Shown in pieces: positions 11,120 through 30,530 of a DNA stretch of 34,275 bases. Position 1 is the stretch's first letter; every line of letters starts with the position of its first letter. Below the pieces are notes generated by a model. The model was not told where the DNA came from and did not search any database. It saw only the letters and a list, made by a program, of their open reading frames with translations. Location of the stretch: positions 1-34,275 of the forward strand of contig NZ_KB890744.1 in NCBI RefSeq assembly GCF_000373245.1, in the 5' to 3' direction. Source of the stretch: Echinicola pacifica DSM 19836. GTDB lineage: Bacteria > Bacteroidota > Bacteroidia > Cytophagales > Cyclobacteriaceae. A program made the translations under genes and the position numbers.

Positions 11120-12241
11120 CTAATTTTCTCCTTCCCCAACGACCACCCCCACCATACTATCGGCAGTGCCATAATACAAAAACCATTGCTCTTTAAAGTA
11201 AACAAGGCCTTCCAGGAAGGTAGTACCATCTTTATATTGTCCGGATTTCTCAAAAGGCAGCTCGGGTTGGATAAACGGCTCATCAGACCTGTCCAATAAC
11301 TTCCACGGTTCTTTGGAATCAAATAGTGCCTGACCACCGGTATATACCCTATTTCCCAGATCACTTACCCCTATATTTGCGGAGTTGCCAGCATTATAGA
11401 TTACCACGATCCCATCAGCGGTGCGTACAGGGGGCGGTCCAGCTTCGACCAACCAGGAATCGAAATACCCAGGTCGTGGGCTCAGCACCGGAGCCAAATT
11501 CCCCTCATAGGTCTCTACTGGCTCCCAGTGAATCAGGTCCTCTGAGGAAGCCAGCCAAATATGGGGAACGCCATAATACATCCAATACTTCCCATTTATC
11601 ATCGCTGCCACCAATTCTCCATCCTGAAGCTCCGTGACGATAGCGCCCGACTTGGTCTCTTGATTATGGTATTTTCCGTCTTTCCATTGTTTGAAGATAG
11701 GCCCATGTTTCTCCCAATGCAGCAGATCCGAGGAGGTGGCCACCGCTAGCCGTGGATACTCTCTGTTCCATTGGGTATAGGTCAATACGTAAGTTCCCTC
11801 CGGAGTTTCTATTATGCGCGGATCTTCAGTGCCTCCTGTCCATTCAAATTCCTTCTGATTATCCTCTGCTGGATAGAATATCGGTACTTTATTCCTTATA
11901 AATTCCCTTCCATCCTCGCTAGTAGCAAGACCTATTCTTGAGGTATGTCCCCCAATTTCGTTTTCTCCAAGCTTCTCTTCGGCACGATATAGCACATGGA
12001 TCTTCCCGTCTTTTACGATAGCTGCTGGGTTAAAGGTCGCCATGGACTCCCAGTGCACGCTTTCGCCAGACATTGGGTCCTCAAAAACCGTTTCGCTGGT
12101 GGGGCTGATGATTGGCTGAGGATCATCTCCTCGCAAAAAAGGCCCAAGCATCCAGCTTTTCTCCTGAGCCATGACGGCTGAGCCCATCCCCATACCTAGA
12201 AGTAGGAATAGCCTCCCTATATATTTTATTTTCATCTTCAT
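11120..12241 (-). CDS. Secreted GH130-family glycosidase/phosphorylase
   Basis: The 373-residue protein starts with a type I signal peptide (LFLLLGMGMGSAVMAQE) and folds as a five-bladed propeller. GH130 features are FNPAAIVKDGKIHVLYRAEE near 70-89, GGTEDPRI with the putative catalytic Asp140, and the repeated LATSEDG/VATSSDLLHWE/LASSEDLIHWE blade motif. GH130 enzymes act on beta-mannosides. Cytoplasmic members are mostly phosphorylases, while exported ones from Bacteroidota are often beta-1,2-mannosidases. Because it is exported, hydrolysis is the more likely reaction. It follows the SusC-SusD pair on the same strand, 71 bp after susD, so it probably processes the glycan taken up by that pair. 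The substrate is inferred from the family only. Confidence 0.85.
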   Translation of the reverse strand: MKMKIKYIGRLFLLLGMGMGSAVMAQEKSWMLGPFLRGDDPQPIISPTSETVFEDPMSGESVHWESMATFNPAAIVKDGKIHVLYRAEEKLGENEIGGHTSRIGLATSEDGREFIRNKVPIFYPAEDNQKEFEWTGGTEDPRIIETPEGTYVLTYTQWNREYPRLAVATSSDLLHWEKHGPIFKQWKDGKYHNQETKSGAIVTELQDGELVAAMINGKYWMYYGVPHIWLASSEDLIHWEPVETYEGNLAPVLSPRPGYFDSWLVEAGPPPVRTADGIVVIYNAGNSANIGVSDLGNRVYTGGQALFDSKEPWKLLDRSDEPFIQPELPFEKSGQYKDGTTFLEGLVYFKEQWFLYYGTADSMVGVVVGEGEN

Positions 12242-12312: not shown

Positions 12313-13797
12313 CTAATATCCGGGATTTTGGCCAATCCTGCCGCCCGACTTATCGATTTCCCCCTGAGGTACAGGGTAGAGCATATGATAATCCTGGAAA
12401 TTTTTGCCCAAGGCAGTGAGACTGGATTTGGCAATCCCCCAGCGCTTAAGATCGTTGAAACGCTGCGACTCAAAACCTAGCTCCACTCTTCTTTCTTGCC
12501 TCAATGCCGCTATAGCCTCTTCCATGCTAAGGCCCTTATTGGATAAGGGAGGCAAAATAGCTCCTGTATTTGGTAAACCACTTAAAGCAGGTGTATTGCG
12601 AGCTCTGGCTCTGACCTGATCTATCAGCAGAAGGCCTTGATTTATGTCTCCTTGCTGCAAATAAGCCTCGGCTTTCCATAATAGCACGTCAGCATAGCGG
12701 ATGTAAATTTTATTTCCTGGAGAATCATCATTCCCTTTATACTCCCCATCGGTGGAGCCCAGCAGCTTATGGATCAATTGTCTTTCTGGATTTACGGTAT
12801 AGCCACTGCGCGGATCTCCTTGCTCAAAAGCTGCCAAAAAATCCTCCGAAGGTGCCACAAACCCCCAGCCCATCAGCGCTCCCAGCCCATTTCCTTTATT
12901 CGGGTTTAATCCCTGTTCATGGTTATAAGCAAATATTACTTCCTGTTCCTTATATTCTTTACTTACCTCAAATGCATCAAAATAATGAGGGTTCAGTGCA
13001 TAGAATCCCAAGCTTTCTATCTCCGCTATATACTGAAGCACCTTAGTCCAGTCCTCCTCAAACAGGGCTATTTTAGCCTGCAGTGCTTTCACCGCTCCTA
13101 ATGAAACTCTCCATGGCTCAGCTTCACTGGAATATTTCGCTGTGGGTAATAAGACCGCTGCACTTTCTAAATCAGCCTTTATTTGTTCCACTACCAAACT
13201 TTTTGACACCCTTCCGGCCACCTCATAAGCCTGCTCAAAATTCTCTAAAGGCTTAGTCAATAAGGGGACATCCCCGAAATTATTGGTAAGCTCAAAGTAA
13301 TAGTAGGCTCTTAAGAAATATACCTCTCCCAATAATCTATCCTGAAGGGAAGGGCTCATCCCCGTCTGTGCAGCTAGATTTTCCTGCTCCAGCAGCGCAA
13401 TGGCCTGATTACATCTGGCGATCCCCTCATAATCGTAGGTCCAAGTCCCATTAAAAGCCCCATTCAATGAAGTGAAATTAAAGGAGGCAACTTGATCCAT
13501 CCATGCCTGATCTCCGTCAGGATTCCATTTCTTCTCCATATCCCCGGAAGCAATATCGTAAATGATAAAATCAACCCTCAATACGGTTCCTCCTAGCCAA
13601 TTCCACTCCCCAATTATATTTAAGGTATTGGAGAGGACTTGATAAGAAGAATTTACCGAAGAGGTCACCGAAGATTCCGTCGGCTCCGTATTGATCTGAT
13701 CTTGCGTGATGAGTCCTATGGGTTCTTTATCCAGGAAGGAGTCGCAAGCTCCAAAACTGAGAGAAGATAGGACGAGTATTTTTATGACGTTTTTCAT
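12313..13797 (-). CDS. SusD/RagB-family surface glycan-binding lipoprotein
   Basis: The protein (494 residues, typical length) has a lipobox Cys18 (SLSFGAC) followed by DSFLDKEP, the usual start of mature SusD proteins. The N-terminal SusD-like domain contains TPR helices (RCNQAIALLEQ, LLGEVYFLRAYYYFELTNNFGDVPL). The C-terminal RagB part ends with KIYIRYADVLLWKAEAYLQ, RQERRVELGFESQRFNDLKRW and YPVPQGEIDKSGG. It binds oligosaccharide at the cell surface and acts as the lid of the SusC channel. It begins 11 bp after the susC stop and is cotranscribed with it. The family is certain. The ligand is unknown, with mannoside suggested by the GH130 neighbour. Confidence 0.95.
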   Translation of the reverse strand: MKNVIKILVLSSLSFGACDSFLDKEPIGLITQDQINTEPTESSVTSSVNSSYQVLSNTLNIIGEWNWLGGTVLRVDFIIYDIASGDMEKKWNPDGDQAWMDQVASFNFTSLNGAFNGTWTYDYEGIARCNQAIALLEQENLAAQTGMSPSLQDRLLGEVYFLRAYYYFELTNNFGDVPLLTKPLENFEQAYEVAGRVSKSLVVEQIKADLESAAVLLPTAKYSSEAEPWRVSLGAVKALQAKIALFEEDWTKVLQYIAEIESLGFYALNPHYFDAFEVSKEYKEQEVIFAYNHEQGLNPNKGNGLGALMGWGFVAPSEDFLAAFEQGDPRSGYTVNPERQLIHKLLGSTDGEYKGNDDSPGNKIYIRYADVLLWKAEAYLQQGDINQGLLLIDQVRARARNTPALSGLPNTGAILPPLSNKGLSMEEAIAALRQERRVELGFESQRFNDLKRWGIAKSSLTALGKNFQDYHMLYPVPQGEIDKSGGRIGQNPGY

Positions 13798-13808
13798 GAT
13801 AGCTAGAA

Positions 13809-16800
13809 TTAGAAATTAACATTCACCCCCAATAGGATGGTTAGTGACTGAGGATAAGTTCCCCTATCGATTAGATCGGTAGATTCAGGGTCCAGACCAC
13901 TGTATTTAGTAAAAGTGAGCAGGTTTTGGCCAGAAATGTAAAATCGCATGCCCGCAATGTCTGATAGCTTTTCTTTGCTTATTGTATAGCCCAACTCAAT
14001 ATTCTTGAGTCTTAGATAAGAGGCATTTTCCACGAAAATATCAGAGATATTACTACTTCCATTATCACTAAAACTTACCCTGGGAATGGTATTCGAACTC
14101 CCTTCTCCATCCCAACTGCTGAGTACCCTGTCGGAGAAATTAAATGGTCGGGTGTCATAATCGATGATTTTTTTGAGGTCATTATATCGATCCACACCAG
14201 CCACTCCCTGAAATAAAATACTGAAATCAAAGGCTTTATAATTCATATTTACCGTGGTGCCGTAACTGATTTTAGGGTTTGGGTTTCCTATAAAATCGCG
14301 GTCATTATCATTGATAAGCCCATTTTGGTCCAGGTCTTTAAATTTTATATCCCCAGCTTGCTGTGCAGGATTTGGAGTGCCAAATAGGTGTTGGCTTACC
14401 TCCTCCTCATTTTGGTAGATGCCCTCTTGCACAAAACCATAATAGGCATTCAAGGAATGGCCACGTTGGGTTCTGGTCACATTACCATCCAGATAAGGCA
14501 GGTTGGGGTGCAGGCCTGTTACTTCGTTTTTGAGGCTCGCAATATTGCCAGTAATGGAATATTTGAAGATATTATCCCTATTCCGATACGAAAGTGCAAG
14601 CTCCAGCCCACTATTAGTTACTTCTCCCGCATTGATAAAAGTGGGAGCCACTTCTCCAACCAGGTTAGGCAGATTAATGGGTAATAGGATATCTGAGGTG
14701 GTCTTTTTAAAATAATCAAAGCTTGCGTAAACTTTGTTTTGGTACAAGCCCAAATCAAACCCTATATCCGTCTGCGCAGTGGTTTCCCATTTCAGGTCTG
14801 CATTGCCATACCGACTGATCAGATACCTGTCTTGCTCCCTTTTGAATAAAGTCAAATAGGCATAATTTGGAATCTCTTGGTTTCCAAGCTTGCCCCAGCT
14901 TCCGCGCAGCTTTAGCTCGGATAGCCAGCTGCTATTCCGTAAAAAATCCTCTTCCGATATCATCCAGCCTGCTGAGAAAGAAGGGAAATATCCCCATTTA
15001 TTATTGGAAGCAAATCGGGAGGAAGCATCCGCCCGGAAATTCGTGGTGACCATATATCGGTCATTATAGACGTAAGTTCCCGAGCCAAAATAAGAAAACA
15101 AGGCCCACTCGGAGGCAAAACCACCATTCCATAAGTCCCGCTCAGTATTTCCAAAATCGATGTATCGGAAGTTTGGGTCAACAAAATCATAACGTCTTCT
15201 GGAAGCCCCAAGGTTTTCTGCCTTATTACTTATAAATTCACTTCCCACCAAAGCGGTAATGTAATTCTTACCAAAGGTTTTATCGTAAGTCAGGCTATTA
15301 TTCCAGGTAATCGTAATTTCCTGCCCTCGGCTTTCATCCAGTCCATTTGGGCGATTTTGCCTACCTAGCCCCTTATCAAATTCATTTCCTCCTCCATCAT
15401 CATCACCATAGTTGACACCAAATACCTTATTATGAAAAAAGTTGACATCAGCCCCTAGATTGGTCCTGAAGTTCAGTGACTTGTCCTTCAAAAAGGAATA
15501 TTCTCCAAATATATTTCCAAAGGTTTTAAATGTTGACCGTACATCATCGGTAAAATAAGCCAAGGCTATAGGATTCTGACTCAACTCATACTTTGAACTT
15601 TCGTAAGTCGAGGGATTTCTATAGAATGGCAGATCAGTAAATGGATTTTCCGGACTATAAGTGGGGTCCTCCGCACTTTTGTAAACAGGTATAATCGGCG
15701 GCCTCAAGAAAGCATGCCGGATGATCCCCGGAGAGTCACCGCTGGAGGATATCTTATCCTGCTGGACATAACTTATTTGCAAATTCATCCCCACAGTAAG
15801 CCTGTCGGTCAATTTTGACTTCACATTTGATCGAAGATTGATCCTATTATATAGGTCATTATCAAAGACCACTATTCCATTTTGCTTAAAATACCCTGCT
15901 GAGATCAAATAAGATGTTTTATCATTACTTCCTGAAGCAGAAAAATCCACATTATTGGTTCGGCCTAATTCAAATAACTCATCAAGGTAGTTGACATCTC
16001 CAAAATCACTTCTTCCCAGGTCCGCGGTGTAAGGATTGACGCCGCCATATCCAGCATTATCCCAAGCCTTCTCCACGGTCTGCATATACTGACCTGCATT
16101 TAGCAAGGTGGGCAAATTGGTTACTTTCTGTATGCCACTGTAATAATTTACCTTGAAGTGATTCCCTTCCGTGCCACTTTTGGTGGTGATCACTACCACC
16201 CCACCTGAAGCCCTCGATCCATATATCGAAGCCGCAGCAGCATCTTTAAGCACCGTCATGGAAGCTATATCTGAGGGGTTCAGGAAATTAATATCCCGAC
16301 TCGGAACTCCGTCAATCACGTAAAGAGGGTTATTGTTTCCGATGGTTCCATTGCCCCGAATACGGATTTCTACTTCATCTCCAGGTGCTCCCGTGCTTTG
16401 AGTAATCTGTACACCTGCCACCTGTCCCTGAAGGGCCTGAGTGACATTGGGCACCCTTCTGTTCTCCAGATTCTCAATATTTACTGGTGCAACAGCTCCT
16501 GAAATGGTGGCCCCCTTCTGAGACCTATACCCCACCACGACCATCTCATCCAAGTCAGCAATATCCTCCTCTAGATTTATCCGACCGACCTTGGGATCGG
16601 AGACAAGGAGCTCCTGACTGACAAATCCCACGAAGGAAAATACTAAAACTGCATCCTGCTGACTCACCTCTATGGCATATTTTCCCTCCATATCCGTCAC
16701 TGTCACATTCGCAGTCCCCTTGACCATCACCGTCACCCCAGGTAGCGGAAGCTGATCCGTGCTGCTAAATACGACTCCTTCCACCCTCTCCCTAGGTGCA

Positions 16801-16919
16801 GTATTCTGCACATCCTGCGGCATCTCTAAGGCTACCACCGCTTGAAAATCGATCGAGAGCAAAATTAAAATCCCCAATAGGACCAGCGCTCTCGCCTTTT
16901 TGATAATTAATTGCTTCAT
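13809..16919 (-). CDS. SusC/RagA-family TonB-linked outer membrane transporter
   Basis: This 1036-residue protein imports oligosaccharides across the outer membrane with energy from TonB. After an atypical long signal region it has a CarboxypepD_reg-like domain (VEGVVFSSTDQLPLPGVTVM to about residue 120), then the TonB-box region (DEMVVVGY) and a plug domain with QALQGQVAGVQITQSTGAPG, IRGNGTIGNNNPLYVIDGVP and the SusC signature KDAAAASIYGSRASGGVVVI. A 22-strand barrel ends in LLGVNVNF. It is the first gene of the SusC-SusD-GH130 unit. A LacI-type palindrome lies about 28 bp before its start codon, so repression released by a sugar is plausible. No lesion is seen. Confidence 0.96.
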   Translation of the reverse strand: MKQLIIKKARALVLLGILILLSIDFQAVVALEMPQDVQNTAPRERVEGVVFSSTDQLPLPGVTVMVKGTANVTVTDMEGKYAIEVSQQDAVLVFSFVGFVSQELLVSDPKVGRINLEEDIADLDEMVVVGYRSQKGATISGAVAPVNIENLENRRVPNVTQALQGQVAGVQITQSTGAPGDEVEIRIRGNGTIGNNNPLYVIDGVPSRDINFLNPSDIASMTVLKDAAAASIYGSRASGGVVVITTKSGTEGNHFKVNYYSGIQKVTNLPTLLNAGQYMQTVEKAWDNAGYGGVNPYTADLGRSDFGDVNYLDELFELGRTNNVDFSASGSNDKTSYLISAGYFKQNGIVVFDNDLYNRINLRSNVKSKLTDRLTVGMNLQISYVQQDKISSSGDSPGIIRHAFLRPPIIPVYKSAEDPTYSPENPFTDLPFYRNPSTYESSKYELSQNPIALAYFTDDVRSTFKTFGNIFGEYSFLKDKSLNFRTNLGADVNFFHNKVFGVNYGDDDGGGNEFDKGLGRQNRPNGLDESRGQEITITWNNSLTYDKTFGKNYITALVGSEFISNKAENLGASRRRYDFVDPNFRYIDFGNTERDLWNGGFASEWALFSYFGSGTYVYNDRYMVTTNFRADASSRFASNNKWGYFPSFSAGWMISEEDFLRNSSWLSELKLRGSWGKLGNQEIPNYAYLTLFKREQDRYLISRYGNADLKWETTAQTDIGFDLGLYQNKVYASFDYFKKTTSDILLPINLPNLVGEVAPTFINAGEVTNSGLELALSYRNRDNIFKYSITGNIASLKNEVTGLHPNLPYLDGNVTRTQRGHSLNAYYGFVQEGIYQNEEEVSQHLFGTPNPAQQAGDIKFKDLDQNGLINDNDRDFIGNPNPKISYGTTVNMNYKAFDFSILFQGVAGVDRYNDLKKIIDYDTRPFNFSDRVLSSWDGEGSSNTIPRVSFSDNGSSNISDIFVENASYLRLKNIELGYTISKEKLSDIAGMRFYISGQNLLTFTKYSGLDPESTDLIDRGTYPQSLTILLGVNVNF

Positions 16920-17717: not shown

Positions 17718-18422
17718 TTAATGCTCATGGTCCTCCTCTGAGGCATGAATCTCAAAGTTCAACTTCAGGATATCTGAGCCTGCAAAGGCTTCTGCATAAT
17801 CAGACCTGTTCCAGTCGGAGCGCTCCACAGTTGACTTTGTGGCAGGATCGGTGAATTTTCTCATAATAAAGGTTACCGCATGAGTCTGGGCTGAATTGGA
17901 ATGACCTAGGGTAAAATACGTCAGCACTCCCGTCGTTTCATACTTTCCATCCACCAGCGTACCCTCACCATACTCCTTTTCACGGGCTTGGAATATCGCT
18001 CCGGACTCATCCTCTGTGTCCGCATTTAATAGTATATTTCCACCCACCAGGAAGGCCTTATACTGATCGGCCGTCTCTTTGTTCTGGACAAAATCGCCCT
18101 CTACCCGATTCCCAGCATAATCCCAGGCTTCTAAGGCCACTTTATAGATCCCATCCGGATCCAAATGGAGATGACCGCCAGAACTGGCATTTCCCAAAGC
18201 ATCAAATTCTATCACCTGCGACTCGCCCTCCACCGCATCATCAATCCCGTGAAAGTGATCTCCATGTGCGCCTAATCCCTCTCCACCAGATATCTCCGTA
18301 AATATCAGACTCGCTTTCTCTATCCCTTCCTCAGGAATCACCGGGCTATCCTCATCTGTACACGAAAACCCTAAAACTGCAAATGCTAAACTGGCAATAA
18401 TAACTTTTCTCATTCTTTTCAT
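17718..18422 (-). CDS. His-rich lipoprotein, putative metal binding
   Basis: The 234-residue protein has a lipoprotein signal peptide with Cys21 (AVLGFSC). Three His clusters stand out: GAHGDHFHGIDD near residue 52, GGHLHLDPDG near 82-91, and the C-terminal EEDHEH. Together with several Asp and Glu residues these suggest zinc or another divalent metal as ligand. I do not know a named family for it. It follows two DUF4625 lipoproteins and a ZnuD-like receptor on the same strand and has its own 7-1-7 palindrome upstream (18472-18486). It could be read separately under the same regulator. It may capture the metal at the surface and pass it to the receptor; this is inference. Confidence 0.7.
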   Translation of the reverse strand: MKRMRKVIIASLAFAVLGFSCTDEDSPVIPEEGIEKASLIFTEISGGEGLGAHGDHFHGIDDAVEGESQVIEFDALGNASSGGHLHLDPDGIYKVALEAWDYAGNRVEGDFVQNKETADQYKAFLVGGNILLNADTEDESGAIFQAREKEYGEGTLVDGKYETTGVLTYFTLGHSNSAQTHAVTFIMRKFTDPATKSTVERSDWNRSDYAEAFAGSDILKLNFEIHASEEDHEH

Positions 18423-18471
18423 TTTTGTTATAGTTTGAATTTTAATTGGTTATGTAATTAATACTATTATT

Positions 18472-18486
18472 CGCAACAATGTTGCA
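18472..18486. promoter_or_regulatory. Fur-family (Zur-like) operator candidate before the His-rich lipoprotein gene
   Basis: CGCAACA-A-TGTTGCA is a 7-1-7 inverted repeat with one mismatch. It lies 50-64 bp upstream of the gene start. It matches both sites in front of the TonB receptor gene at 19688-21925. The 7-1-7 layout is the one used by Fur-family repressors. Confidence 0.65.
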
Positions 18487-18604
18487 TATTATTTTTTTGG
18501 CAATAATTCCCCCTTCCTAGGGAATATCCCTAGGATTAGGTAAGTCTTACTCATAAGTGCAGACACCTGAAAACCGATGAATCTATAAGACCTTCAGTAC
18601 TATT

Positions 18605-19075
18605 TTATTGAATCTGTAAACTGATCCCTTTCAGGCTTTGCCAGCCTTCATGATCTGTCAACTTGACTAGGAAATGATAATCTCCCGGATCAATATCTTC
18701 GGGCACGGAAATACTGAGCTCCGCCTCATAGGTAGTTTTCCCTGCGGGAATGGCATGGCTTTCGATTAGCAAAAAGGGATTCACAGGAGTTTTGGTAGGC
18801 ATCATATCGCAGTCATTCACCTCTGTGCTATGCGTATGATGGTCAAAATTGTGATGAATATCCAAGCTGAAGGAACCGAGTTGGAAATTATCAGAAAACC
18901 GGGCCCTGAATATAAAGTCCTCGCCCCGCTTCACTAGAGCGCATTGGCTGGGGAAAGCCTCTGCAAAATCCATCGATATCTCTGGATATTGAGTATCCAC
19001 AGCGTCATTTTCCGTACAGGATCCTAGGCCAAATACTATCATTATTAGCAGAATTGCCGATTGTTTTATTCTCAT
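18605..19075 (-). CDS. DUF4625-type lipoprotein with a His cluster
   Basis: A short lipoprotein (156 residues) with Cys20 (VFGLGSC) and an Ig-like beta-sandwich domain. The sequence FRARFSDNFQLGSFSLDIH, followed by a cluster of six His within about 12 residues (HHNFDHHTHS) and an Asp-Cys-Asp (NDCDMM), is striking. The end, DPGDYHFLVKLTDHEGWQS, is typical of DUF4625 proteins. The His cluster sits where the paralogue at 19200-19676 has EQQADKLYD, so one copy seems specialised for metal. It is the third gene of the receptor unit, 124 bp after its paralogue. Metal binding is an inference from composition. Confidence 0.7.
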   Translation of the reverse strand: MRIKQSAILLIMIVFGLGSCTENDAVDTQYPEISMDFAEAFPSQCALVKRGEDFIFRARFSDNFQLGSFSLDIHHNFDHHTHSTEVNDCDMMPTKTPVNPFLLIESHAIPAGKTTYEAELSISVPEDIDPGDYHFLVKLTDHEGWQSLKGISLQIQ

Positions 19076-19199
19076 CCTCTTTTGTTTAGCAATTGTTTTA
19101 TTGTTTTAATAATCAGGTCAACAAAGAAAAAATGGCTTTCTTTATCCTCCTCTTCCAGACCTTATTGAGGGGGGTAGAATTCTCACTGAAAGTTTAGCG

Positions 19200-19676
19200 C
19201 TAATCGGAGGACGGGTTTTCTGCTGCCCGCACCTGGACGAGATAGGACTCTTCCATCAGGGATCCATTTTGGTCCTTTATATAGAGGGTAAAGAGATATT
19301 CTCCCTCCACCGCAGCTGCAGGAATCATAAAATGCTTATGGACAGTGGTGTTTTTGAGGCCTTCAAACTCCTCCCACTGGATCTCAAAATTCCAGGGAGC
19401 GTCATAAAGCTTATCGGCTTGCTGCTCGATGCGTACCCCCACGGATTCGATCAGGTTTTCGGCGAGAACCTGGACATTGAGATGGAAATCCTGCCCGATG
19501 GTCAGCGTCCTATTATCCCCTGATCCTATCTCCAGCTCACTGAAGGAGGCGGGCCGTGGCTCCATATCTTCCTCCTGGCTACAGGAAAAAACAGCACCTA
19601 GTCCGATACCTATAAAAAGAGGAAGCCAATAAACGTTTTTGTTCAGGGGTACAAAGCGATTTTTCATGCGATACAT
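19200..19676 (-). CDS. DUF4625-type lipoprotein
   Basis: A 158-residue protein with a rather long lipoprotein signal peptide (Cys32, GAVFSC); starting at Met4 would shorten it slightly. The mature part is one Ig-like domain: FHLNVQVLAENLIESVGVRI, HKHFMIPAAAVEGEYLFTLY and KDQNGSLMEESYLVQV. It is a paralogue of the protein encoded at 18605-19075 but has few His residues. It begins 11 bp after the TonB receptor stop, so cotranscription is nearly certain. A role as accessory surface lipoprotein of the receptor is likely. Confidence 0.7.
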   Translation of the reverse strand: MYRMKNRFVPLNKNVYWLPLFIGIGLGAVFSCSQEEDMEPRPASFSELEIGSGDNRTLTIGQDFHLNVQVLAENLIESVGVRIEQQADKLYDAPWNFEIQWEEFEGLKNTTVHKHFMIPAAAVEGEYLFTLYIKDQNGSLMEESYLVQVRAAENPSSD

Positions 19677-19687
19677 TATTAAATTAT

Positions 19688-21925
19688 TTAAAGTTGAAAG
19701 GGAATCAAAAGGGAAAAAACGAGGTTTCGACCTTGCTCAGGCAGGTCTATCAGTCGATAGAAACTAGTATGATTCATATAGCCTGTGTTTAATACATTTT
19801 GCACTTGGAAGTTCAGGGTCATTTGCTGGCCCCAGAAGATCAGATCTCCCCCTCCTTTGATGCTTAGCAGCTGGTAAGCCGGGCTAGTTTTTTCTGGTGG
19901 GACAATCCGATTTTGCCTCGCGGTAAGGCGATAATCGATTCCTATAAAAGGGGCTGTAAGCCAAGCGGTGGACCTAAACGACTTTTCTATCCCAGCGATC
20001 ATGGAGGCGGGAGGAGAAAATGGCAGTGAATACCCCTTCTTTGACCCACTGACCTGCTGGCTATACAAAACCTCCCCTCCAAGGTCCAGATGTAATTGGG
20101 GTAACAGCCGGAAGTCCACATGAAATTCTGCCCCATACCGAATCACCTGCGCTTGCTGATAATTAAAAACCTGATTTCCAGCACCGTACAAATAATCGTA
20201 GGCAGCACTGGGGTTGAGGTAGATATAATTGGTGAAATAATTGAGGTAGGGGCTGAAATCAAAGGTCAGTTTCTCCGTCTGATAATTCGCCTCCAGGTCC
20301 AGCTGAAAAGAGCGCTCAGGATCCAAATTCGCATTACCTCTTTCGAATCTATAATAATGATAATTGACGCCATTTGCTCCCAACTCCTGGGCAAGAGGAA
20401 CCCGATAGGCTGTACCAAAACTGCCCTTATAAGTCCATGTTCCGGGCGTATAAGTCAAGCCAATCGATCCCACTATACTGCTAAACTGCCGCTCCAACTC
20501 ATTCGCCCGATAGAGATAATCTCCAGGGGTAGGTGAAGCCGAGGTGCTTGAAGGAAACCAATCTTGATAAGCCTCAATATTAATTTTATGATAATCAAAT
20601 CTGGCGGCGACCTCGATCAGCCACTGCTCCGTCCACCGCCATTTGTCCAGCGCATACAGTCCAATAGCTCGTTTTTCATGAGCAGGAATCAAAAACCCCC
20701 AACCTCCAATTTTATTTCTCTGATATTCCGCGCCAAGACCCACTTGCAGCTGATGGCGATTCAGGAACCAATCTGACCGCGCATTGAGGATGCCCGTTGA
20801 CTTATCAAAAGCCCGCTCCAAATCCGCTGGATCGCTACGATCTGAAGGATAATTGGCTGGCATAAAACCATGATTGACATATTGGCCCCATTCGCTGCGA
20901 TCGTTGATTTGCCATCCCATATCCAGTTCCAATAGAGCTTTATCAAAGGTAAACCTTAGCTGATCCGCCACTTTCAGGTGACTTACCTCCTGCATCGGCA
21001 GCAGAATATCTGTGGAAGACTGATCATGCAGCTCAGTATTCACCGCCCGAGGCTCGAGCCCATGGGCATTGGCAAAGAATCCAGCTCTGGTACTTACCCG
21101 GGATAGGCTAAGGACATTGCGTAGTCTGGATGTTTTATAACCCCAGTTGAAAGCCCAATTCTGCTCAGTTCCGGCGGTATTCCTCACCCTATTTTGATCC
21201 AAAGCCACAGGATAATTATATACATGTACAGTGTCCGCGGGCACCCTAAAGTCACCATAAGTGGCTGCCGTCAGCCTTGCCTCCAGCCACCAATGGTCCG
21301 AGGTATAATAGATGTGGCCAGACCCGCCGGCCCAATTCATATTCGACTGAGTTCCCATGGACAGCTCACCACCAGCGGTATTTCTTTCCGGATAGTTGGA
21401 TGCCTGGATATCCAGCACCCCTCCAATGGCATCCGAGCCATAGCGCACCGATGCAGGTCCCTTAATCAAAATAACCTCGCCAATTCCGTACTGATCCACC
21501 TCTAAGCCATGATCTGCGCCCCACTGCTGCCCCTCATGCTTCAGGCCATGCTCCACCACCATCACCCTATTGAACCCCAGCCCTCTTATCTGTGGCTTGG
21601 AGGCCCCGGAGCCCACGCCTATGCTGCTGATCCCCGGAATTCGCTCCAGGGACTTCATCAGACTGCCTGACCTATTTCTCCTTATAAAATCCTCTGAAAT
21701 AAATGAAATAATAGACACCTCTTCTCTCCTGCGCTGAGCGCCTAAACCCTCAACCGTCACCTCCTCCAGCTCTACTAACCCGCTAGGCAGTTCAAGCACC
21801 GAAGTATCCCTTGGGGCGGTTTTGACTGGCATGTCCAGACTTGACCTAGCCAGCTCCTTAGCCTCCGCTGAGCCAGTAGATATCCAGAAAAATGATAAAA
21901 AGCCTAAAACAAAATTCATAAACAA
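19688..21925 (-). CDS. TonB-dependent receptor, ZnuD-like, putative zinc uptake
   Basis: The 745-residue outer membrane receptor has a signal peptide, no CarboxypepD domain, a TonB-box-like region (LEEVTVEG), and a plug with LMKSLERIPGISSIGVGSGA, IRGLGFNRVMVVEHGLKHEG and GPASVRYGSDAIGGVLDI. The segment QQWGADHGLEVDQ in the plug sits where zinc receptors of the ZnuD type carry their DH-containing metal site. The barrel ends in NLVFSLLIPFQL. It leads a unit with two DUF4625 lipoproteins and is preceded by a perfect promoter with two 7-1-7 palindromes, which fits repression by a metal-bound Fur-family protein. Zinc is the best guess; copper, manganese or a metallophore remain possible. Confidence 0.8.
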   Translation of the reverse strand: MFMNFVLGFLSFFWISTGSAEAKELARSSLDMPVKTAPRDTSVLELPSGLVELEEVTVEGLGAQRRREEVSIISFISEDFIRRNRSGSLMKSLERIPGISSIGVGSGASKPQIRGLGFNRVMVVEHGLKHEGQQWGADHGLEVDQYGIGEVILIKGPASVRYGSDAIGGVLDIQASNYPERNTAGGELSMGTQSNMNWAGGSGHIYYTSDHWWLEARLTAATYGDFRVPADTVHVYNYPVALDQNRVRNTAGTEQNWAFNWGYKTSRLRNVLSLSRVSTRAGFFANAHGLEPRAVNTELHDQSSTDILLPMQEVSHLKVADQLRFTFDKALLELDMGWQINDRSEWGQYVNHGFMPANYPSDRSDPADLERAFDKSTGILNARSDWFLNRHQLQVGLGAEYQRNKIGGWGFLIPAHEKRAIGLYALDKWRWTEQWLIEVAARFDYHKINIEAYQDWFPSSTSASPTPGDYLYRANELERQFSSIVGSIGLTYTPGTWTYKGSFGTAYRVPLAQELGANGVNYHYYRFERGNANLDPERSFQLDLEANYQTEKLTFDFSPYLNYFTNYIYLNPSAAYDYLYGAGNQVFNYQQAQVIRYGAEFHVDFRLLPQLHLDLGGEVLYSQQVSGSKKGYSLPFSPPASMIAGIEKSFRSTAWLTAPFIGIDYRLTARQNRIVPPEKTSPAYQLLSIKGGGDLIFWGQQMTLNFQVQNVLNTGYMNHTSFYRLIDLPEQGRNLVFSLLIPFQL

Positions 21926-21936
21926 AACTCATTATA

Positions 21937-21951
21937 TGCAACAGTGTTGCA
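21937..21951. promoter_or_regulatory. Proximal Fur-family (Zur-like) operator of the TonB receptor
   Basis: TGCAACA-G-TGTTGCA is a perfect 7-1-7 inverted repeat. It abuts the TAnnTTTG element (21950-21957) and covers the predicted transcription start, a classical repressor position. Confidence 0.75.
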
Positions 21952-21979
21952 AATATAGAAATTAGCATTTATGAAACAA
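21950..21979 (-). promoter_or_regulatory. Promoter of the TonB receptor unit
   Basis: On the minus strand TTG (21979-21977) is followed after 19 nt by TATATTTG (21957-21950), a perfect match to TAnnTTTG. The TTG lies inside the distal operator and the TATATTTG touches the proximal one. Transcription would start roughly 20 nt before the receptor ATG. Confidence 0.7.
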
Positions 21980-21986
21980 TGTTGCA
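21972..21986. promoter_or_regulatory. Distal Fur-family (Zur-like) operator of the TonB receptor
   Basis: TGAAACA-A-TGTTGCA is the same 7-1-7 repeat with one mismatch in the left arm. Its centre is 35 bp from the centre of the proximal site. It covers the TTG element of the promoter. Confidence 0.65.
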
Positions 21987-22101: not shown

Positions 22102-22384
22102 TAACATTCCCCGCATAAATCAGGAATCCATCTCCAAAATTCCCTAATTTTGGATTTAGGCGTCACAAGACCTTTATAAGTGGAAACCAAAGTTCTTAAA
22201 ATCATTCCCATCAAAATCCTAATGGGCAGCAGGCCTAGGCTACGATTTTGGGATTATAAAGAGTTCGTTGGGGCTTTATTAGTTTATTGTGGTAATATGA
22301 GGGGCATTTAGAAGCCAATGCCTCCACCTCGCCGAAGACATTTACCCTTATATTTTGAATAAAAACAATATTTACCTCCATAAA

Positions 22385-23968
22385 ATGACCTTAAAACACT
22401 ATATCAGAATGCCCCTTTTGGGCCTATTATTAATGCATTGTTTCTCCTCATGGGGACAGACCAATAGGGATTCGAATCGCCCAAATATTATCCTTATCTA
22501 TGCGGATGATCTAGGCCGGGGATTGCTTTCCGGAGAGGGCCAGGGGATCATCAAAACCCCACATATCGACCAGCTGGCTCAGGAGGGAATGCGATTTGAG
22601 AATGCTTATGGGAGTATGCTTTGTGCGCCAGCACGAGCCAGCCTGATCACTGGCTACCATGATGCGCATGGAGATCGCTGGAGAATCACCCAAGGGGGGA
22701 TTTACAAAAAGATTTCTACCGGCGAAATGACCCAGGACGCTATCGAAACCATGGTAAACGAGCAGATTGGGAGTATTCCAGAGGAAGAGGTTTTCCTTCC
22801 TCAGGTGCTCCGGGAAGCAGGATATACCACGGGAGAAATCGGCAAATTGGAATGGGGATTTGCGACTACGGACCAGGAAATGAAGCGTCACGGATGGGAC
22901 TATTATTATGGCTATTTAGATCATGAGCGGTGTCATGGATTTTATCCTCCATTTTTATTTGAAGATGGTCATCTTATAGAAATCGAGGGAAATACCCTCG
23001 TAAACTGTGGCAAAAGCATAGAACATGAGACGCCAGAAGCCTATGCAGAGCGCTGGAATATGGAAGGAAAAGCGCAGTATTCGCAAAACCTGTTTTTAGA
23101 AAAAATACTGGACTTCATACGGGACAATAAAGATCAACCTTTTTTCCTTTATCACCCTACCCAACTTCCTCACGGCCCAGTATCCATCCCGGAAGTGGCC
23201 GAGGAATACCTGCATGATGATCGTCTCACTCCAATCGAAAAAGAATATGCCTCCATGGTAAAGATGCTGGATGACCATGTGGGTATCATTATGGCCGAGC
23301 TGAAAGCCCTGGGGATTGATGACAATACCATGGTGATTTTCACCTCTGATAATGGGCACGAAATCTATTATTCCCAGGAAGGACGTATCCTCAAACCGGT
23401 GAGGAATATGCAAACGGGGAAGTTTTTTGATGATGTCAATACCAAATATTATAGCGAACTGGCCGGAGATGTCTTCGATGGCAATGACGGCATGGCCGGA
23501 GTAAAACGTAGCAACTGGGAAGGTGGAGTGCGCGTACCGCTGATCGCCCGATGGCCAGGCAAAATCAAGGCTGGCGCCAGCTCTGAGGCCTTGGTAACCA
23601 ATTATGATTTCATGGCAACTATGGCAGACCTCGTGGGATCTGCCCTTCCGCCCAATAAGGATGGCCTTTCTTACCTGCCTGAATTGCTGGGCAAGAAAGT
23701 GGAAGAACATGATTATATCGTCTATTCCTCCTTTATGGGACCTGCTTTGGTCACTAATGAAGGGTGGAAAATCCGCTATTTCTCCAAAAAAGACCTTTAT
23801 CAGCTCTATTATTTACCTGACGACTATCGGGAAGAAAATAATATCATCGCTATGAATCCAGAAAAAGCAGAGGAACTCAAAAAACCCCTAATCGAAGAAT
23901 GCGAAGGAGATCTGGACAATGGCCTTTTCCAAAACAATAAGTCCATCGTCACTTACCCCTCTCATTAA
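22385..23968 (+). CDS. Secreted sulfatase, S1 family
   Basis: I place the start at 22385, giving 527 residues and a signal peptide ending WGQ. The longer frame from 22355 adds ten polar residues. The sulfatase fold is clear: NIILIYADDLGRG (metal-binding Asp pair), TPHIDQLAQEGMRFENAYG, then CAPARASLITG with Cys80 as the residue converted to formylglycine. The motif is CxPxR with Ala where the common form has Ser. Further on, IFTSDNGHE supplies metal-binding Asp and Asn, followed by RVPLIARWPGKI. It removes sulfate esters, probably from an algal or host glycan, in the periplasm. It is the only intact plus-strand gene I can support here, and converges with an SGNH hydrolase. The substrate cannot be told from the sequence. 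Confidence 0.92.
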   Translation: MTLKHYIRMPLLGLLLMHCFSSWGQTNRDSNRPNIILIYADDLGRGLLSGEGQGIIKTPHIDQLAQEGMRFENAYGSMLCAPARASLITGYHDAHGDRWRITQGGIYKKISTGEMTQDAIETMVNEQIGSIPEEEVFLPQVLREAGYTTGEIGKLEWGFATTDQEMKRHGWDYYYGYLDHERCHGFYPPFLFEDGHLIEIEGNTLVNCGKSIEHETPEAYAERWNMEGKAQYSQNLFLEKILDFIRDNKDQPFFLYHPTQLPHGPVSIPEVAEEYLHDDRLTPIEKEYASMVKMLDDHVGIIMAELKALGIDDNTMVIFTSDNGHEIYYSQEGRILKPVRNMQTGKFFDDVNTKYYSELAGDVFDGNDGMAGVKRSNWEGGVRVPLIARWPGKIKAGASSEALVTNYDFMATMADLVGSALPPNKDGLSYLPELLGKKVEEHDYIVYSSFMGPALVTNEGWKIRYFSKKDLYQLYYLPDDYREENNIIAMNPEKAEELKKPLIEECEGDLDNGLFQNNKSIVTYPSH

Positions 23969-24021: not shown

Positions 24022-24675
24022 TTATTTCATCCGCTCTGCCAAAGCCTTCTGAAGTTGTGAAGTGATTTTTTGGCTAATCTGCTCATATCCCTCCTTGGAA
24101 TAATGAACATCATCAGGGCCGTTTCCAGCGGTTTTGTGGATCTTTTTGGTCCATGAATAAATATCATTGACCTCAATATCATTTTCCCGCATGATCCGCT
24201 TCGCCACTTTATTATACCGCTGGGCATCCTTATCAAACCTGCCAGGCTCCTCTTTGGGTACATAGCTGGTGGTGACAAAAATCAGTTTGGCATCGGACCT
24301 TTCCTTAAGGATGGACACCAAAGCCCTCAAATTACGCTCATACTCCTCCAGGGAGGCCGTCAGCGTCCCATTGACCTTGTCTCTATCCATCTGAGCATCC
24401 CTATAGCACAGGTCCCATAAGCCCCAGTTGAACTGGATGATATCAAATTCCTCAGCTCCCAGCCACTCCTCAATATGAGCCAGGCCATTGGCGGTAAATT
24501 TAGCATTGCCAGCATTATGGGTGACCTGAGCCTTTCCCTGAAAATAATCCGCCACAAAGGGGGTATAACCTATGGAAATAGAGTCCCCAATGATGAGTAT
24601 TTTTGGCTTTTCAGATTGGCTGAAGCTCATTAGCATGAGCAAAATTATACTGCTTAAAAGAAAACGCTTCATCAT
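24022..24675 (-). CDS. Secreted SGNH/GDSL-family hydrolase
   Basis: The 217-residue protein has a short signal peptide and then KILIIGDSISIGYTPFV, block I of the SGNH family with nucleophile Ser32. Block III is seen as FNWGLWDLC and block V as DDVHYSKEGYEQ, giving the catalytic Asp and His. Such enzymes are esterases that often remove acetyl groups from polysaccharides. The gene ends 53 bp from the stop of the convergent sulfatase gene. Both may act on the same decorated glycan, which is inference. A hairpin, GCGGATGAA/TTCATCCGC (24010-24034), spans its stop codon and may help end both transcripts. Confidence 0.85.
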   Translation of the reverse strand: MMKRFLLSSIILLMLMSFSQSEKPKILIIGDSISIGYTPFVADYFQGKAQVTHNAGNAKFTANGLAHIEEWLGAEEFDIIQFNWGLWDLCYRDAQMDRDKVNGTLTASLEEYERNLRALVSILKERSDAKLIFVTTSYVPKEEPGRFDKDAQRYNKVAKRIMRENDIEVNDIYSWTKKIHKTAGNGPDDVHYSKEGYEQISQKITSQLQKALAERMK

Positions 24676-27840: not shown

Positions 27841-29067
27841 TTATTCCATAATAATCATTGTTTTGGGTTTTTGGACTTTCGACCGAGGGATAGTTTTGGC
27901 TCGGCCTTGGTTATTTTTACGGGGTTTTCCTTTCTTTTTCTTACCCCACCAGATGATAAAGCCCGTAATCGGTAAACTGCCAGAAATAATGCAGACTAGA
28001 AAAGCGATAATCTTGGTCCAGATCCCCCCGATAAGGCCTAAGTGCAGATCATAGTTTAAGCGCATCAGTTGCTCCCCTCCATTGGCCTCATTATAAGGCA
28101 GCCCTGCTTTCAATAGTTTTAAACTATGCTGTTCGTAATGATAATCGATTTTTCTAAAAGTACTTATCAGACTTGGATTGACCTGTAAGTTCCAGACGCC
28201 GGCCTCGCCACGCGGATAAAACATACTAAATCGGTTCTCTTCCACATCAAGACCTGATGTAACTAGCTTGCTAAATAAAATATCTTCCTCCAAAACACCC
28301 TCCTTGGCCATCAAAGTGGTATCTGAACTAAACCGATCAAATACCTCCTTCTCCCCTGCCGAGCCGACCCAATATACAGAGCTGCGGAACCAGTCCATGC
28401 CATAGACCATCCCCGTCAGGCCCAGCACGAGGGCGATCAAAAGGGAGTAAAAGCCGATTACATTATGTAGATCATAATTGAGACGCTTTGGGCTGGCGGG
28501 CCATTTCACCTTGAAGCTAGCATTTTTGGTGGCGCGGGTCCACTTTTTGGGCCACCAAAGCACCAAGCCGGTGATCAGTGTGATGACAAAAATCAAGGTA
28601 CTATAAGCCACGACGGGCTTCCCTATAGGCCGAGGCAGCCAAAGCTGGTAATGCCCCATCAGCATAAATCTAAAAAAGTCATCATTTAATTTCCGAAGGT
28701 GCAGCACCTCCGCAGTATAGGGATTGACCAGCACCTGGCGGTAATTCCTTCGATCTTGGTAATAAGGTACCATGGCGCTTCGTCCTTCCCCTCTATACAT
28801 CACGCCATACACGCTTGGGAAGCCATATTCCTGCTTCACCGCCTCTGCCAGCACGGATGGAGGCAATAGCTCCTGTCCTTCCGATGCCTGCACTGTTTCA
28901 TATGGCTCCAACAGCAAGCGTATTTCATCCTCAAAAGTAAGGGCTGCAGCAGTAAGGCTCACCAAAACCACCACGATGCCCGACACCAAACCAAGCCACA
29001 GATGCAGCCAAGCTGATATTCTATAAAATAAGGAGCGATTTTTTACTGTTTTCTTTTTCTTAAGCAT
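27841..29067 (-). CDS. PepSY-domain membrane protein, XusC-like putative ferric-siderophore reductase
   Basis: The 408-residue inner membrane protein has four hydrophobic segments: residues about 20-45 (LGLVSGIVVVLVSLTAAALTF), about 150-170, about 205-225 and near 365-385. Conserved His residues at helix ends (SAWLHLWLG, LMGHYQLW, YDLHNVIGF, YDLHLGLIGG) suggest heme ligation. PepSY-like soluble parts lie between helices 1 and 2 and between 3 and 4. It follows a DUF4374 lipoprotein and a TonB receptor on the same strand, the order of the XusABC xenosiderophore system of Bacteroides, where XusC is thought to release iron. A hairpin in the 214-bp gap before it may lower its expression. Confidence 0.82.
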   Translation of the reverse strand: MLKKKKTVKNRSLFYRISAWLHLWLGLVSGIVVVLVSLTAAALTFEDEIRLLLEPYETVQASEGQELLPPSVLAEAVKQEYGFPSVYGVMYRGEGRSAMVPYYQDRRNYRQVLVNPYTAEVLHLRKLNDDFFRFMLMGHYQLWLPRPIGKPVVAYSTLIFVITLITGLVLWWPKKWTRATKNASFKVKWPASPKRLNYDLHNVIGFYSLLIALVLGLTGMVYGMDWFRSSVYWVGSAGEKEVFDRFSSDTTLMAKEGVLEEDILFSKLVTSGLDVEENRFSMFYPRGEAGVWNLQVNPSLISTFRKIDYHYEQHSLKLLKAGLPYNEANGGEQLMRLNYDLHLGLIGGIWTKIIAFLVCIISGSLPITGFIIWWGKKKKGKPRKNNQGRAKTIPRSKVQKPKTMIIME

Positions 29068-29240
29068 ACCGAAAAGAGACTTGGCGTGAGGAATTGGGAC
29101 TAGAAGTTTAGCATTAATTAAAATGCTAATCTTCCCTTAATGAGAGATATGGCGAGGAACTTGTCTACTTTAATAGGAGAGTTTTGGCCTACCCATCACA
29201 AGGTGGTTTAGCCTTGTTTATGGATAAAAATGAAGAAGAA

Positions 29241-29272
29241 TGACCAATTGAACCCGGGAGTCCAATTGGTCA
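29241..29272 (-). terminator. Terminator or attenuating hairpin between the XusB-like and XusC-like genes
   Basis: A perfect 10-bp stem, TGACCAATTG/CAATTGGTCA, has a 12-nt loop. On the minus strand it is followed by TTCTTCTTCATTTTT. It lies 10 bp after the DUF4374 stop. The tail is not a pure T-run, so read-through into the PepSY gene is possible. Confidence 0.6.
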
Positions 29273-29281
29273 ATACCTTTC

Positions 29282-30517
29282 TTATTCGGCGACAGCGAGT
29301 CGGCTGATGGCTGTGATGGTGCCACCTTCCACTTTTAGCCCTCGGCTGGCAGTGGCAGACTGTGCATCCACCTGATAGACATAGGATCCCTCAGTGGTGG
29401 TGAAGCCAATGAAGGCCGTTTTGCCATCCATAAGGGAGTAATTATTGGTGGTGACATTGGTGATTTCTTCCACTGCAGGAGTACCGCTCACCCAGGTGAA
29501 GGTTTCGTCATACACATTGAGTATTCCCAATCTTTTCCCAGTGGTATAGGCACCTTTTTCGTTGTGCATAAACACTACGAAATTGCCTAGGCCAAGATAA
29601 GTCTGGTTGGTGACATGATATCCGTCAGCCACATCCTCCACATTGAAATAATAATCCTGGTCAAACTCCGTCTCGCCTGCTTTTATCCGCACAAAAGCAG
29701 AGGGGCTGGTGGAGGTAGCGACCCCATTGCTGGTGGCCACGGCGGAGGAGAAGGCATAGGCATCTCCGTTTTCTACTTCTACAAGTCCATTGGTAAAATA
29801 CCTGCCGATATAGCTAATTCTATTGTCCTTGATCACTTTTTCCAAATTCATAGAGGGATAGTCATACACGGCTACCCAGGCGCTATCAGGGTAAGAAGTC
29901 CCGAAAGTATCATTGCAGCAACCTTTGATGCTCATATAGGGGGCATATACCTTTTCGCCCACCTGAGTAAGCCAGGTAAAATGTGCTCTTTCTCCATTGG
30001 AAGCGACATCCACGATATTCGTCAGGCCATTGGCTTTGATCTGCAGCAGATCGGTATCCAGCTGATACCAAGAGGCATCCTCTGCTCCACTACGAGGAAT
30101 TTTCATCATCAGGATATCATCATTCACCGGTGCAAACACCTGTACGGTCTCAGACTGGAAATCTGACAATTTCTGCAAGGCCCCATTTTCATCCAGCTGA
30201 TAGGTGGTGACCGCTCCAGGATTCCCCTGTCCATAGAGCAGGCTGAAGAACTTATTATTATTGGTTACATAATAGCGGTAAGTCCCATCCTGCTCGATGC
30301 CATTACCCACAGTACTGATGGTACCAGAGCTAAGATCCTCAGCCGTAAGCAGATAATCAGCCACTCCCTCCGAGGTGGTCGGGGTGGATGCGATTATATA
30401 CCTAGCCTGCACATCCTCTCCCGGGGTCACCGTAGGCTTTTCATCTTCACTACATCCAAACATCCCAAATGCGGCCAGAGCAGCTGCTCCGACACAATAA
30501 TTAAATTTCACTTTCAT
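29282..30517 (-). CDS. DUF4374 surface lipoprotein, XusB-like siderophore binder
   Basis: I start it at 30517, 13 bp after the receptor stop, because this Met opens a good lipoprotein signal (MKVKFNYCVGAAALAAFGMFGC, broken here as MKVKFNYC then GAAALAAFGMFGC; Cys22). The frame is open to 30613, but that start overlaps the receptor gene. The 411-residue product shows repeated beta-strand units typical of a propeller and the DUF4374 landmarks YIIASTPTTSEGVADYLLTA and VYAPYMSIKGCCNDTFGTSY. In Bacteroides the related XusB is a surface lipoprotein that binds ferric enterobactin-type siderophores. The neighbours (TonB receptor, PepSY protein) are the same, so a similar role is likely; the actual ligand is not. 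Confidence 0.85.
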   Translation of the reverse strand: MKVKFNYCVGAAALAAFGMFGCSEDEKPTVTPGEDVQARYIIASTPTTSEGVADYLLTAEDLSSGTISTVGNGIEQDGTYRYYVTNNNKFFSLLYGQGNPGAVTTYQLDENGALQKLSDFQSETVQVFAPVNDDILMMKIPRSGAEDASWYQLDTDLLQIKANGLTNIVDVASNGERAHFTWLTQVGEKVYAPYMSIKGCCNDTFGTSYPDSAWVAVYDYPSMNLEKVIKDNRISYIGRYFTNGLVEVENGDAYAFSSAVATSNGVATSTSPSAFVRIKAGETEFDQDYYFNVEDVADGYHVTNQTYLGLGNFVVFMHNEKGAYTTGKRLGILNVYDETFTWVSGTPAVEEITNVTTNNYSLMDGKTAFIGFTTTEGSYVYQVDAQSATASRGLKVEGGTITAISRLAVAE

Positions 30518-30530
30518 AATTTTCACTTGA

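Follow-up and report, generated by a model that had tools for sequence, protein, structure and literature searches.

A ZnuD-like receptor gene linked to DUF4625 lipoprotein genes defines a predicted Zur-controlled zinc-scavenging operon of Bacteroidota

A four-gene cluster behind operator-like palindromes

The 34,275-nucleotide stretch of Echinicola pacifica DSM 19836 analysed here (positions 1 to 34,275 of NZ_KB890744.1, hereafter the window; the genome comprises 5.44 megabases on 22 contigs) contains four minus-strand genes, running from 21919 down to 17718, which encode a TonB-dependent receptor (TBDT1), two DUF4625 lipoproteins (DUF4625A and DUF4625B) and a third lipoprotein, LipoC (Table 1). 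We propose, with a probability of roughly 0.8, that these genes form a zinc-scavenging operon of Bacteroidota under repression by Zur, in which the lipoproteins gather zinc and supply it to the ZnuD-like receptor. Within this proposal the predicted control by Zur and the role in zinc appear well supported, and it is the comparison of genomes that brings out the putative operator, the gene set, its conservation and the link to Zur.

The first-pass annotation, made from the letters of the window, had described a TonB receptor with a QQWGADHG plug segment, two DUF4625 lipoproteins and an unnamed lipoprotein, and all of these were recovered: the receptor matches both Plug and barrel domains, both DUF4625 proteins exceed the gathering cut-off of their family (PF15418, 27 bits), and the product of 17718-18422 is without a Pfam match. 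The His clusters that it had pointed out (HHNFDHHTHS, GAHGDHFHG and a C-terminal DHEH) are likewise all found in the translated lipoproteins, and DUF4625A, which it had not flagged as His-rich, also holds family-conserved histidines. A TTG at 21925 is a possible alternative start of TBDT1. The three reported 7-1-7 palindromes are distributed as described, with a tandem pair (sites 1 and 2) ahead of the receptor gene and the third before the gene for LipoC.

Table 1. Features of the predicted zinc-scavenging operon, in window coordinates
Feature	Position	Strand	Remarks
TBDT1, ZnuD-like TonB-dependent receptor, 743 amino acids from ATG	19688..21919	-	Plug 57.1 bits, barrel 100.3 bits
DUF4625 lipoprotein A, 158 amino acids, Cys then SQEED	19200..19676	-	PF15418 69.4 bits
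DUF4625 lipoprotein B, 156 amino acids, carries HHNFDHHTHS	18605..19075	-	PF15418 127.9 bits
LipoC, third lipoprotein, 234 amino acids, C-terminal DHEH	17718..18422	-	without Pfam match
Operator-like site 1, TGCAACAGTGTTGCA	21937..21951	.	perfect palindrome; overlaps putative -7 box
Operator-like site 2, TGAAACAATGTTGCA	21972..21986	.	one mismatch; overlaps putative -33 element; 35 base pairs from site 1
Operator-like site 3, CGCAACAATGTTGCA	18472..18486	.	one mismatch; 50 base pairs upstream of LipoC
Putative Bacteroidota -7 box TATATTTG (TAnnTTTG)	21950..21957	-	read from sequence

The putative -7 box TATATTTG was read against what we take to be the promoter consensus of Bacteroidota (-7 TAnnTTTG, with a -33 element), and a TTG at 21977-21979, inside site 2, is a possible -33 element separated from it by a 19-nucleotide spacer. 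Sites 1 and 2 thus overlap the two putative promoter elements, a geometry which fits a repressor. Three motif matches with up to three mismatches are not unusual for the window alone (16 of 100 shuffles reach three); the whole genome has only five sites with at most one mismatch, of which three lie at this cluster and the other two before a second receptor gene at C13 and before a FAD oxidoreductase gene at C16. All four genes recur, in the same order, in a same-genus genome (L290) and in Echinicola shivajiensis (L156); both have sites at the three corresponding positions, the tandem pair included, and those of L290 carry one or two mismatches. Because of the genome-wide rarity and the same placement in L290, the sites go beyond chance. 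Furthermore, among the 51 sites that have genes to one side alone (three being copies from one genome, with two promoters counted twice), there are 22 occurrences of TAnnTTTG in the orientation of the genes, 8 at -6 and 12 at +21..+33, compared with 7 in the reverse orientation.

The motif marks zinc-linked genes in related genomes

Of 98 genomes of the same family, 42 contain the exact palindrome, and a version of 16 bases occurs in 61 of the 194 searched for the order; the reversed control gave 0 in either case. Gene neighbors were studied at 74 sites among the matches listed for the family (73 from other genomes, one from that of the window), with Pfam and NCBIfam scans of the 90 genes whose starts lie close by. 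The products include 12 TonB plug, 9 MerC, 8 Pyr_redox_2 and 5 CobW proteins, and five of the 90 genes match the model of the zinc chaperone ZigA at E-values up to 1e-5, the best being 3.3e-173. Classes named independently of the motif (MerC, COG0523/ZigA, AztD-like, Zur-like, ZnuD-like receptors, HupE and FolE), sought among the first four genes per site, were reached at 28 of the 74 sites versus 83 of 1300 control points, which were drawn from the stretches around the sites at a distance of 3 kilobases or more. The first-pass annotation had suggested that the motif might cluster at zinc genes and a zur-like gene; this is upheld in the relatives and fails for the zur gene of the Echinicola genome itself, which is unmarked.

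Several other families recur behind the motif. Seven of the 74 sites precede a thioredoxin-reductase-like FAD family of the Pyr_redox_2 type, at G000:C16:225670 (L018 4733-5644) and in six other genomes. The LipoD lipoprotein family, with conserved acidic residues and two conserved histidines, is found behind 14 of the 74. Three contigs of genome G043 (L113, L114, L116) each carry a copy of an operon that stands behind the motif and is headed by an 898-amino-acid distant receptor match, owing either to a recent duplication or to an assembly effect. A site with two mismatches at G000:C1:920434 (L025) stands 64 base pairs before a gene for 353 amino acids, with the start MRNNARKNIIYS.

The candidate regulator

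Four Fur-family genes are present in the Echinicola genome. The best solved relative of the one at C1:704.6 kilobases (L023) is E. coli Zur (E-value 7.6e-8), and its best NCBIfam model is also Zur, below the cut-off; Fur is the best model match of L020 and L021, and L022 is PerR-like by context, adjoining an AhpC-family gene. L023 is most likely the Zur of this organism. The module is not linked to zur in the Echinicola genome; Zur-like genes do occur in 13 of the 80 related loci described below, and in a comparison of 14 reading frames, two of them short, all were nearer to L023 than to the other three Fur-family genes. For example, in L123 a second receptor (TBDT2), LipoD and a Zur-like protein, 53 percent identical to L023, are encoded in one row behind an exact motif. 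L140 has a site with one mismatch between a Zur-like gene and a MerC-FolE pair that point away from each other, next to the genes for DUF4625B, DUF4625A and the receptor. L209 shows in succession MerC, ZigA-like (569.6 bits against a cut-off of 600), Zur-like, receptor, DUF4625A and DUF4625B genes.

Independent support for Zur and zinc comes from a match between the motif and a predicted Desulfovibrio operator. According to the pertinent section of a 2004 comparative study (PMC545781), ATGCAACnnnGTTGCAT is the predicted Zur box of Desulfovibrio znuABC-zur operons and ATGCAACagtGTTGCAT the predicted site of D. vulgaris; window positions 21936-21952, ATGCAACAGTGTTGCAA, have 16 of 17 bases in common with the latter, the Desulfovibrio box being predicted and not footprinted. 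The core palindrome is the same, although it stands ahead of znuABC-zur there and ahead of receptor and lipoprotein genes of Bacteroidota here. Since the motif sits at zinc and zur-like genes in relatives and equals this predicted box, the Fur/Zur control put forward in the first-pass annotation can be narrowed to Zur. In the open-licence literature we found neither a Zur box of Bacteroidota nor such an operon, though more may be described in subscription papers or regulon databases. A search with three word stems found no mention of Bacteroidota in a Zur review (PMC6103462). The pertinent passages of a Riemerella ZntR paper (PMC11960050) present TonB receptors as possibly zinc-linked and describe no Zur box, and those of a Flavobacterium ribosome paper (PMC9976891) mention Zur for other bacteria only.

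A receptor related to ZnuD

The nearest relative of TBDT1 in the PDB by sequence is Neisseria ZnuD (4rdr; E-value 3.3e-21, or 1.3e-36 with a profile), and the curated ZnuD model NF038289 is its top NCBIfam match (116.8 bits). In the profile alignment its plug residues D136-H137 align with the Asp-His pair D99/H100 of ZnuD, the residue offset having been counted by hand. H521, in the same loop as ZnuD H499 but two columns off it, is kept in 70 of 70 aligned receptors and lies between boxes which we take to be FRAP-like and NPNL-like. Zinc-starvation control, predicted for the window operon, is a further likeness, whereas lipoprotein genes beside the receptor set the window system apart from ZnuD. 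Unlike ZnuD, whose loop 3 is described in the pertinent part of PMC4557270 as holding His clusters, TBDT1 has none such, HGLKH being its only His pair within five residues. The SusC signatures TIGR04056 and TIGR04057 are absent among the 19 NCBIfam matches of TBDT1, and the cluster lipoproteins, which are DUF4625 or family-less, include no SusD partner.

Against a background of 124 plug-domain matches in the Echinicola genome, the C13 receptor is the only clear look-alike of TBDT1 (28 percent identity, E-value 9e-38), the next three reaching E-values of 1e-4 to 7.5e-4. Both ZnuD-like receptors of this genome are preceded by the motif. The C13 locus (G000:C13:550729; L019 4795-7720) encodes a receptor with a CarbopepD_reg_2 N-terminus and a GQQWGSEH plug segment, together with a LipoD lipoprotein.

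Constant company of receptor and DUF4625 lipoproteins

A scan of named genomes with an alignment of three receptors gave 564 confirmed places, of which the best 80 are considered here as TBDT1 loci; they come from Echinicola, Algoriphagus, Flavobacterium, Pedobacter, Mucilaginibacter, Chitinophaga, Sphingobacterium, Labilibaculum and other genera. Strain CI04 of the laboratory species Flavobacterium johnsoniae also carries the locus (L178). All 80 hold DUF4625 genes, 74 of them A and 78 of them B; LipoC-like genes were found in 8, and in 6 of these LipoC is fused behind DUF4625A. In the reverse direction, DUF4625 was found in 22 of 395 genomes of the phylum, 18 of them above the cut-off, and by hand count the fetched stretch held a receptor relative in 16 of these 18 and in 0 of the 4 below it. 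This constant company, together with the fusions of DUF4625A to LipoC, fits a joint machine. Counted over the 80 loci, perfect sites number 5, one-mismatch sites 47 and two-mismatch sites 53 (0, 0 and 9, respectively, in a Markov resample), and 58 of the loci have at least one; 17 close site pairs are exactly 38 base pairs apart, many from related Flavobacterium loci.

Conserved histidines are present in all three lipoproteins. In DUF4625A, H65 and H113 are kept in 85 of 86 homologues and H115 in 83, the last two forming an HxH. DUF4625B has H74, H80, H82, H134, C45 and C89 invariant in a 39-row alignment, with the four histidines kept in 79 of 79 homologues, and its structure model is a beta-sandwich (mean predicted local distance difference test score, pLDDT, 92.9). 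In LipoC, H53, H56, H84, H86 and H226 are invariant in a 9-row alignment. The surface-lipoprotein export signal (LES) of Bacteroidota, as described in the section of PMC5080379 that deals with it, was sought as a polar residue followed by acidic residues after the lipobox Cys. TDEDS and SQEED in the window lipoproteins match this pattern and TENDA does so weakly; at least two acidic residues occur at +2..+6 in 66 of 86 DUF4625A and 7 of 9 LipoC sequences. We found no paper naming DUF4625 in the open-licence literature, and subscription papers may hold more.

The Flavobacterium versions of the cluster often close with an AztD-like protein, that of L163 matching AztD (PDB 6cmk) at an E-value of 3.3e-18, and L161, L165 and L186 encode a protein of similar size and start. 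In both L115 and L120 such a gene immediately follows the motif. By eye, the AztD-like proteins at L163 9094-10308, L115 5754-7016 and L120 5707-6936, all in Zur-type operons, carry lipoprotein-type signals. A His-containing, secreted-looking protein of about 116 amino acids heads the cluster immediately behind the sites in L130, L132, L133, L135-L137, L163 and other Flavobacterium-like loci.

Proposed mechanism and alternatives

Taken as anatomy, the gene set is best read as a surface complex that would feed the receptor, and we infer that Zur binds the operators and that the lipoproteins lie at the surface, bind zinc and hand it over. In zinc-replete cells Zur (most likely L023) would block transcription by occupying site 3 ahead of LipoC as well as sites 1 and 2, which lie over the putative -7 and -33 elements of the receptor gene. 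Under zinc shortage Zur would leave, so that the ZnuD-like TonB receptor and the three lipoproteins could be made. The lipoproteins, probably exported to the cell surface, would use their conserved His clusters to bind zinc or zinc-loaded ligands and then deliver the metal to the receptor, where the plug Asp-His pair and the loop His may form the entry site for TonB-driven import.

Several observations weigh against this proposal. TBDT1 is far below the curated ZnuD cut-off of 950 bits, and in the profile alignment ZnuD H499 is two columns off H521 and the ZnuD ligand E340 is assigned no counterpart. At the listed family sites, 46 of the 74 are away from the independently named classes; 22 of these 46 fit classes derived from the sites themselves (LipoD, DUF3299-like, FAD oxidoreductase, ABC protein and DUF4625), and 24 fit no class, several of them, by eye, beside small His-rich proteins. 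The Echinicola genome gives no ZigA or MerC match and has no site with up to two mismatches near its zur gene, and none of its six two-mismatch sites is at a recognised zinc gene. Among the 80 loci, 22 lack any site at up to two mismatches, and the fit of DUF4625B to the export signal appears weak (at least two acidic residues in 42 of 79 homologues).

One alternative retains Zur control of zinc uptake, with lipoproteins that work independently of the receptor: they might store zinc at the surface, serve as chaperones facing the periplasm, or be adhesins that hold a zinc-loaded protein or glycan. We consider this unlikely, if deserving of serious attention, as the unbroken association of DUF4625 with the receptor and the six DUF4625A-LipoC fusions speak against stand-alone action. 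That the operon is instead controlled by Fur and serves the uptake of iron or haem, its receptor importing haem or a siderophore and its His-rich lipoproteins serving as haem-binding partners, we hold to be very improbable. The haem receptor model scores TBDT1 at 104.9 bits, nearly equal to the ZnuD score, and ZnuD itself was, by the account in the pertinent part of PMC4557270, initially misread as a haem receptor. However, the motif is rare genome-wide, it marks MerC, ZigA-like, AztD-like and Zur-like genes in related genomes, and it agrees with a Zur box that had been predicted before; the linked regulators resemble the organism's own Zur more closely than Fur; and, in a scan of the window, a Xus-like iron operon a few kilobases away has no such site. 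Another metal cargo (copper, nickel, cobalt or manganese) is more improbable still, given that the recurring neighbors are zinc-linked by name (ZigA-like, AztD-like, Zur-like), even though part of the TBDT1 barrel matches the copper receptor model TIGR01778 and also OprC.

Relation to known systems and implications

The Xus system of Bacteroides pairs the receptor XusA with the lipoprotein XusB, which we take to be a DUF4374 and not a DUF4625 protein. No DUF4374 is found among the cluster lipoproteins, and the DUF4374 gene of the window belongs to another operon. Xus is comparable in that it joins a TonB receptor to a metal-complex-binding lipoprotein, but its cargo is iron-enterobactin, as given in the relevant passages of PMC12574912. 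Caulobacter ZnuK and ZnuL are TonB receptors that Zur represses and that are required for growth when zinc is scarce, according to the pertinent part of PMC4176598, a paper from which the word lipoprotein is absent. ZepA of Anabaena is, by description only, a comparable Zur-linked extracellular zinc-acquisition protein, yet it is an exoprotein, and neither "Bacteroid-" nor "lipoprotein" occurs in the corresponding text of PMC10957091. AztD serves an ABC importer in Paracoccus; AztD-like proteins, below the curated AztD cut-off, occur in the operons of relatives, whereas the window operon has none.

These comparisons raise the possibility, to which we would give somewhat less than an even chance, of a phylum-wide zinc machine in which DUF4625A, DUF4625B and LipoC form a Zur-switched surface complex loading zinc into a ZnuD-like receptor, as a counterpart of Sus for glycans and Xus for siderophores. 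If so, DUF4625 would be a new zinc-capturing surface family with an immunoglobulin-like (Ig-like) sandwich and an invariant H...HxH...H site, and zinc would join the cargoes that lipoprotein-receptor pairs take up in this phylum, whose members are common in gut, soil and marine habitats. The analysis offers a likely and testable function for DUF4625, which had none before, and for an unnamed lipoprotein family, and supplies an operator sequence for genome searches along with a candidate regulator. In the open-licence literature, outer-membrane zinc import of Bacteroidota looks unmapped.

Other genes in and beyond the window

About 6 kilobases from the zinc cluster, the minus-strand genes at 27841-32894 encode a TonB receptor, a DUF4374 protein and a PepSY membrane protein, and look like a Xus-type xenosiderophore (iron) operon, the Xus gene names being our assumption. 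Upstream of it lies an AT-rich stretch, TTTAAACTTAATCTAAA, which is different from the zinc motif. The zinc operon is flanked by polysaccharide-type genes, namely SusC/SusD (12313-16919), GH130-like (11120-12241), sulfatase (22355-23968) and GDSL lipase (24022-24675) genes, and a flavohaemoglobin-like gene is found at 8741-9949. Elsewhere, a contig end at G000:C7:45500-48198 (L024 11517-14199) carries several small genes with repeated pieces which, by eye, resemble fragments of polymorphic-toxin-like proteins.
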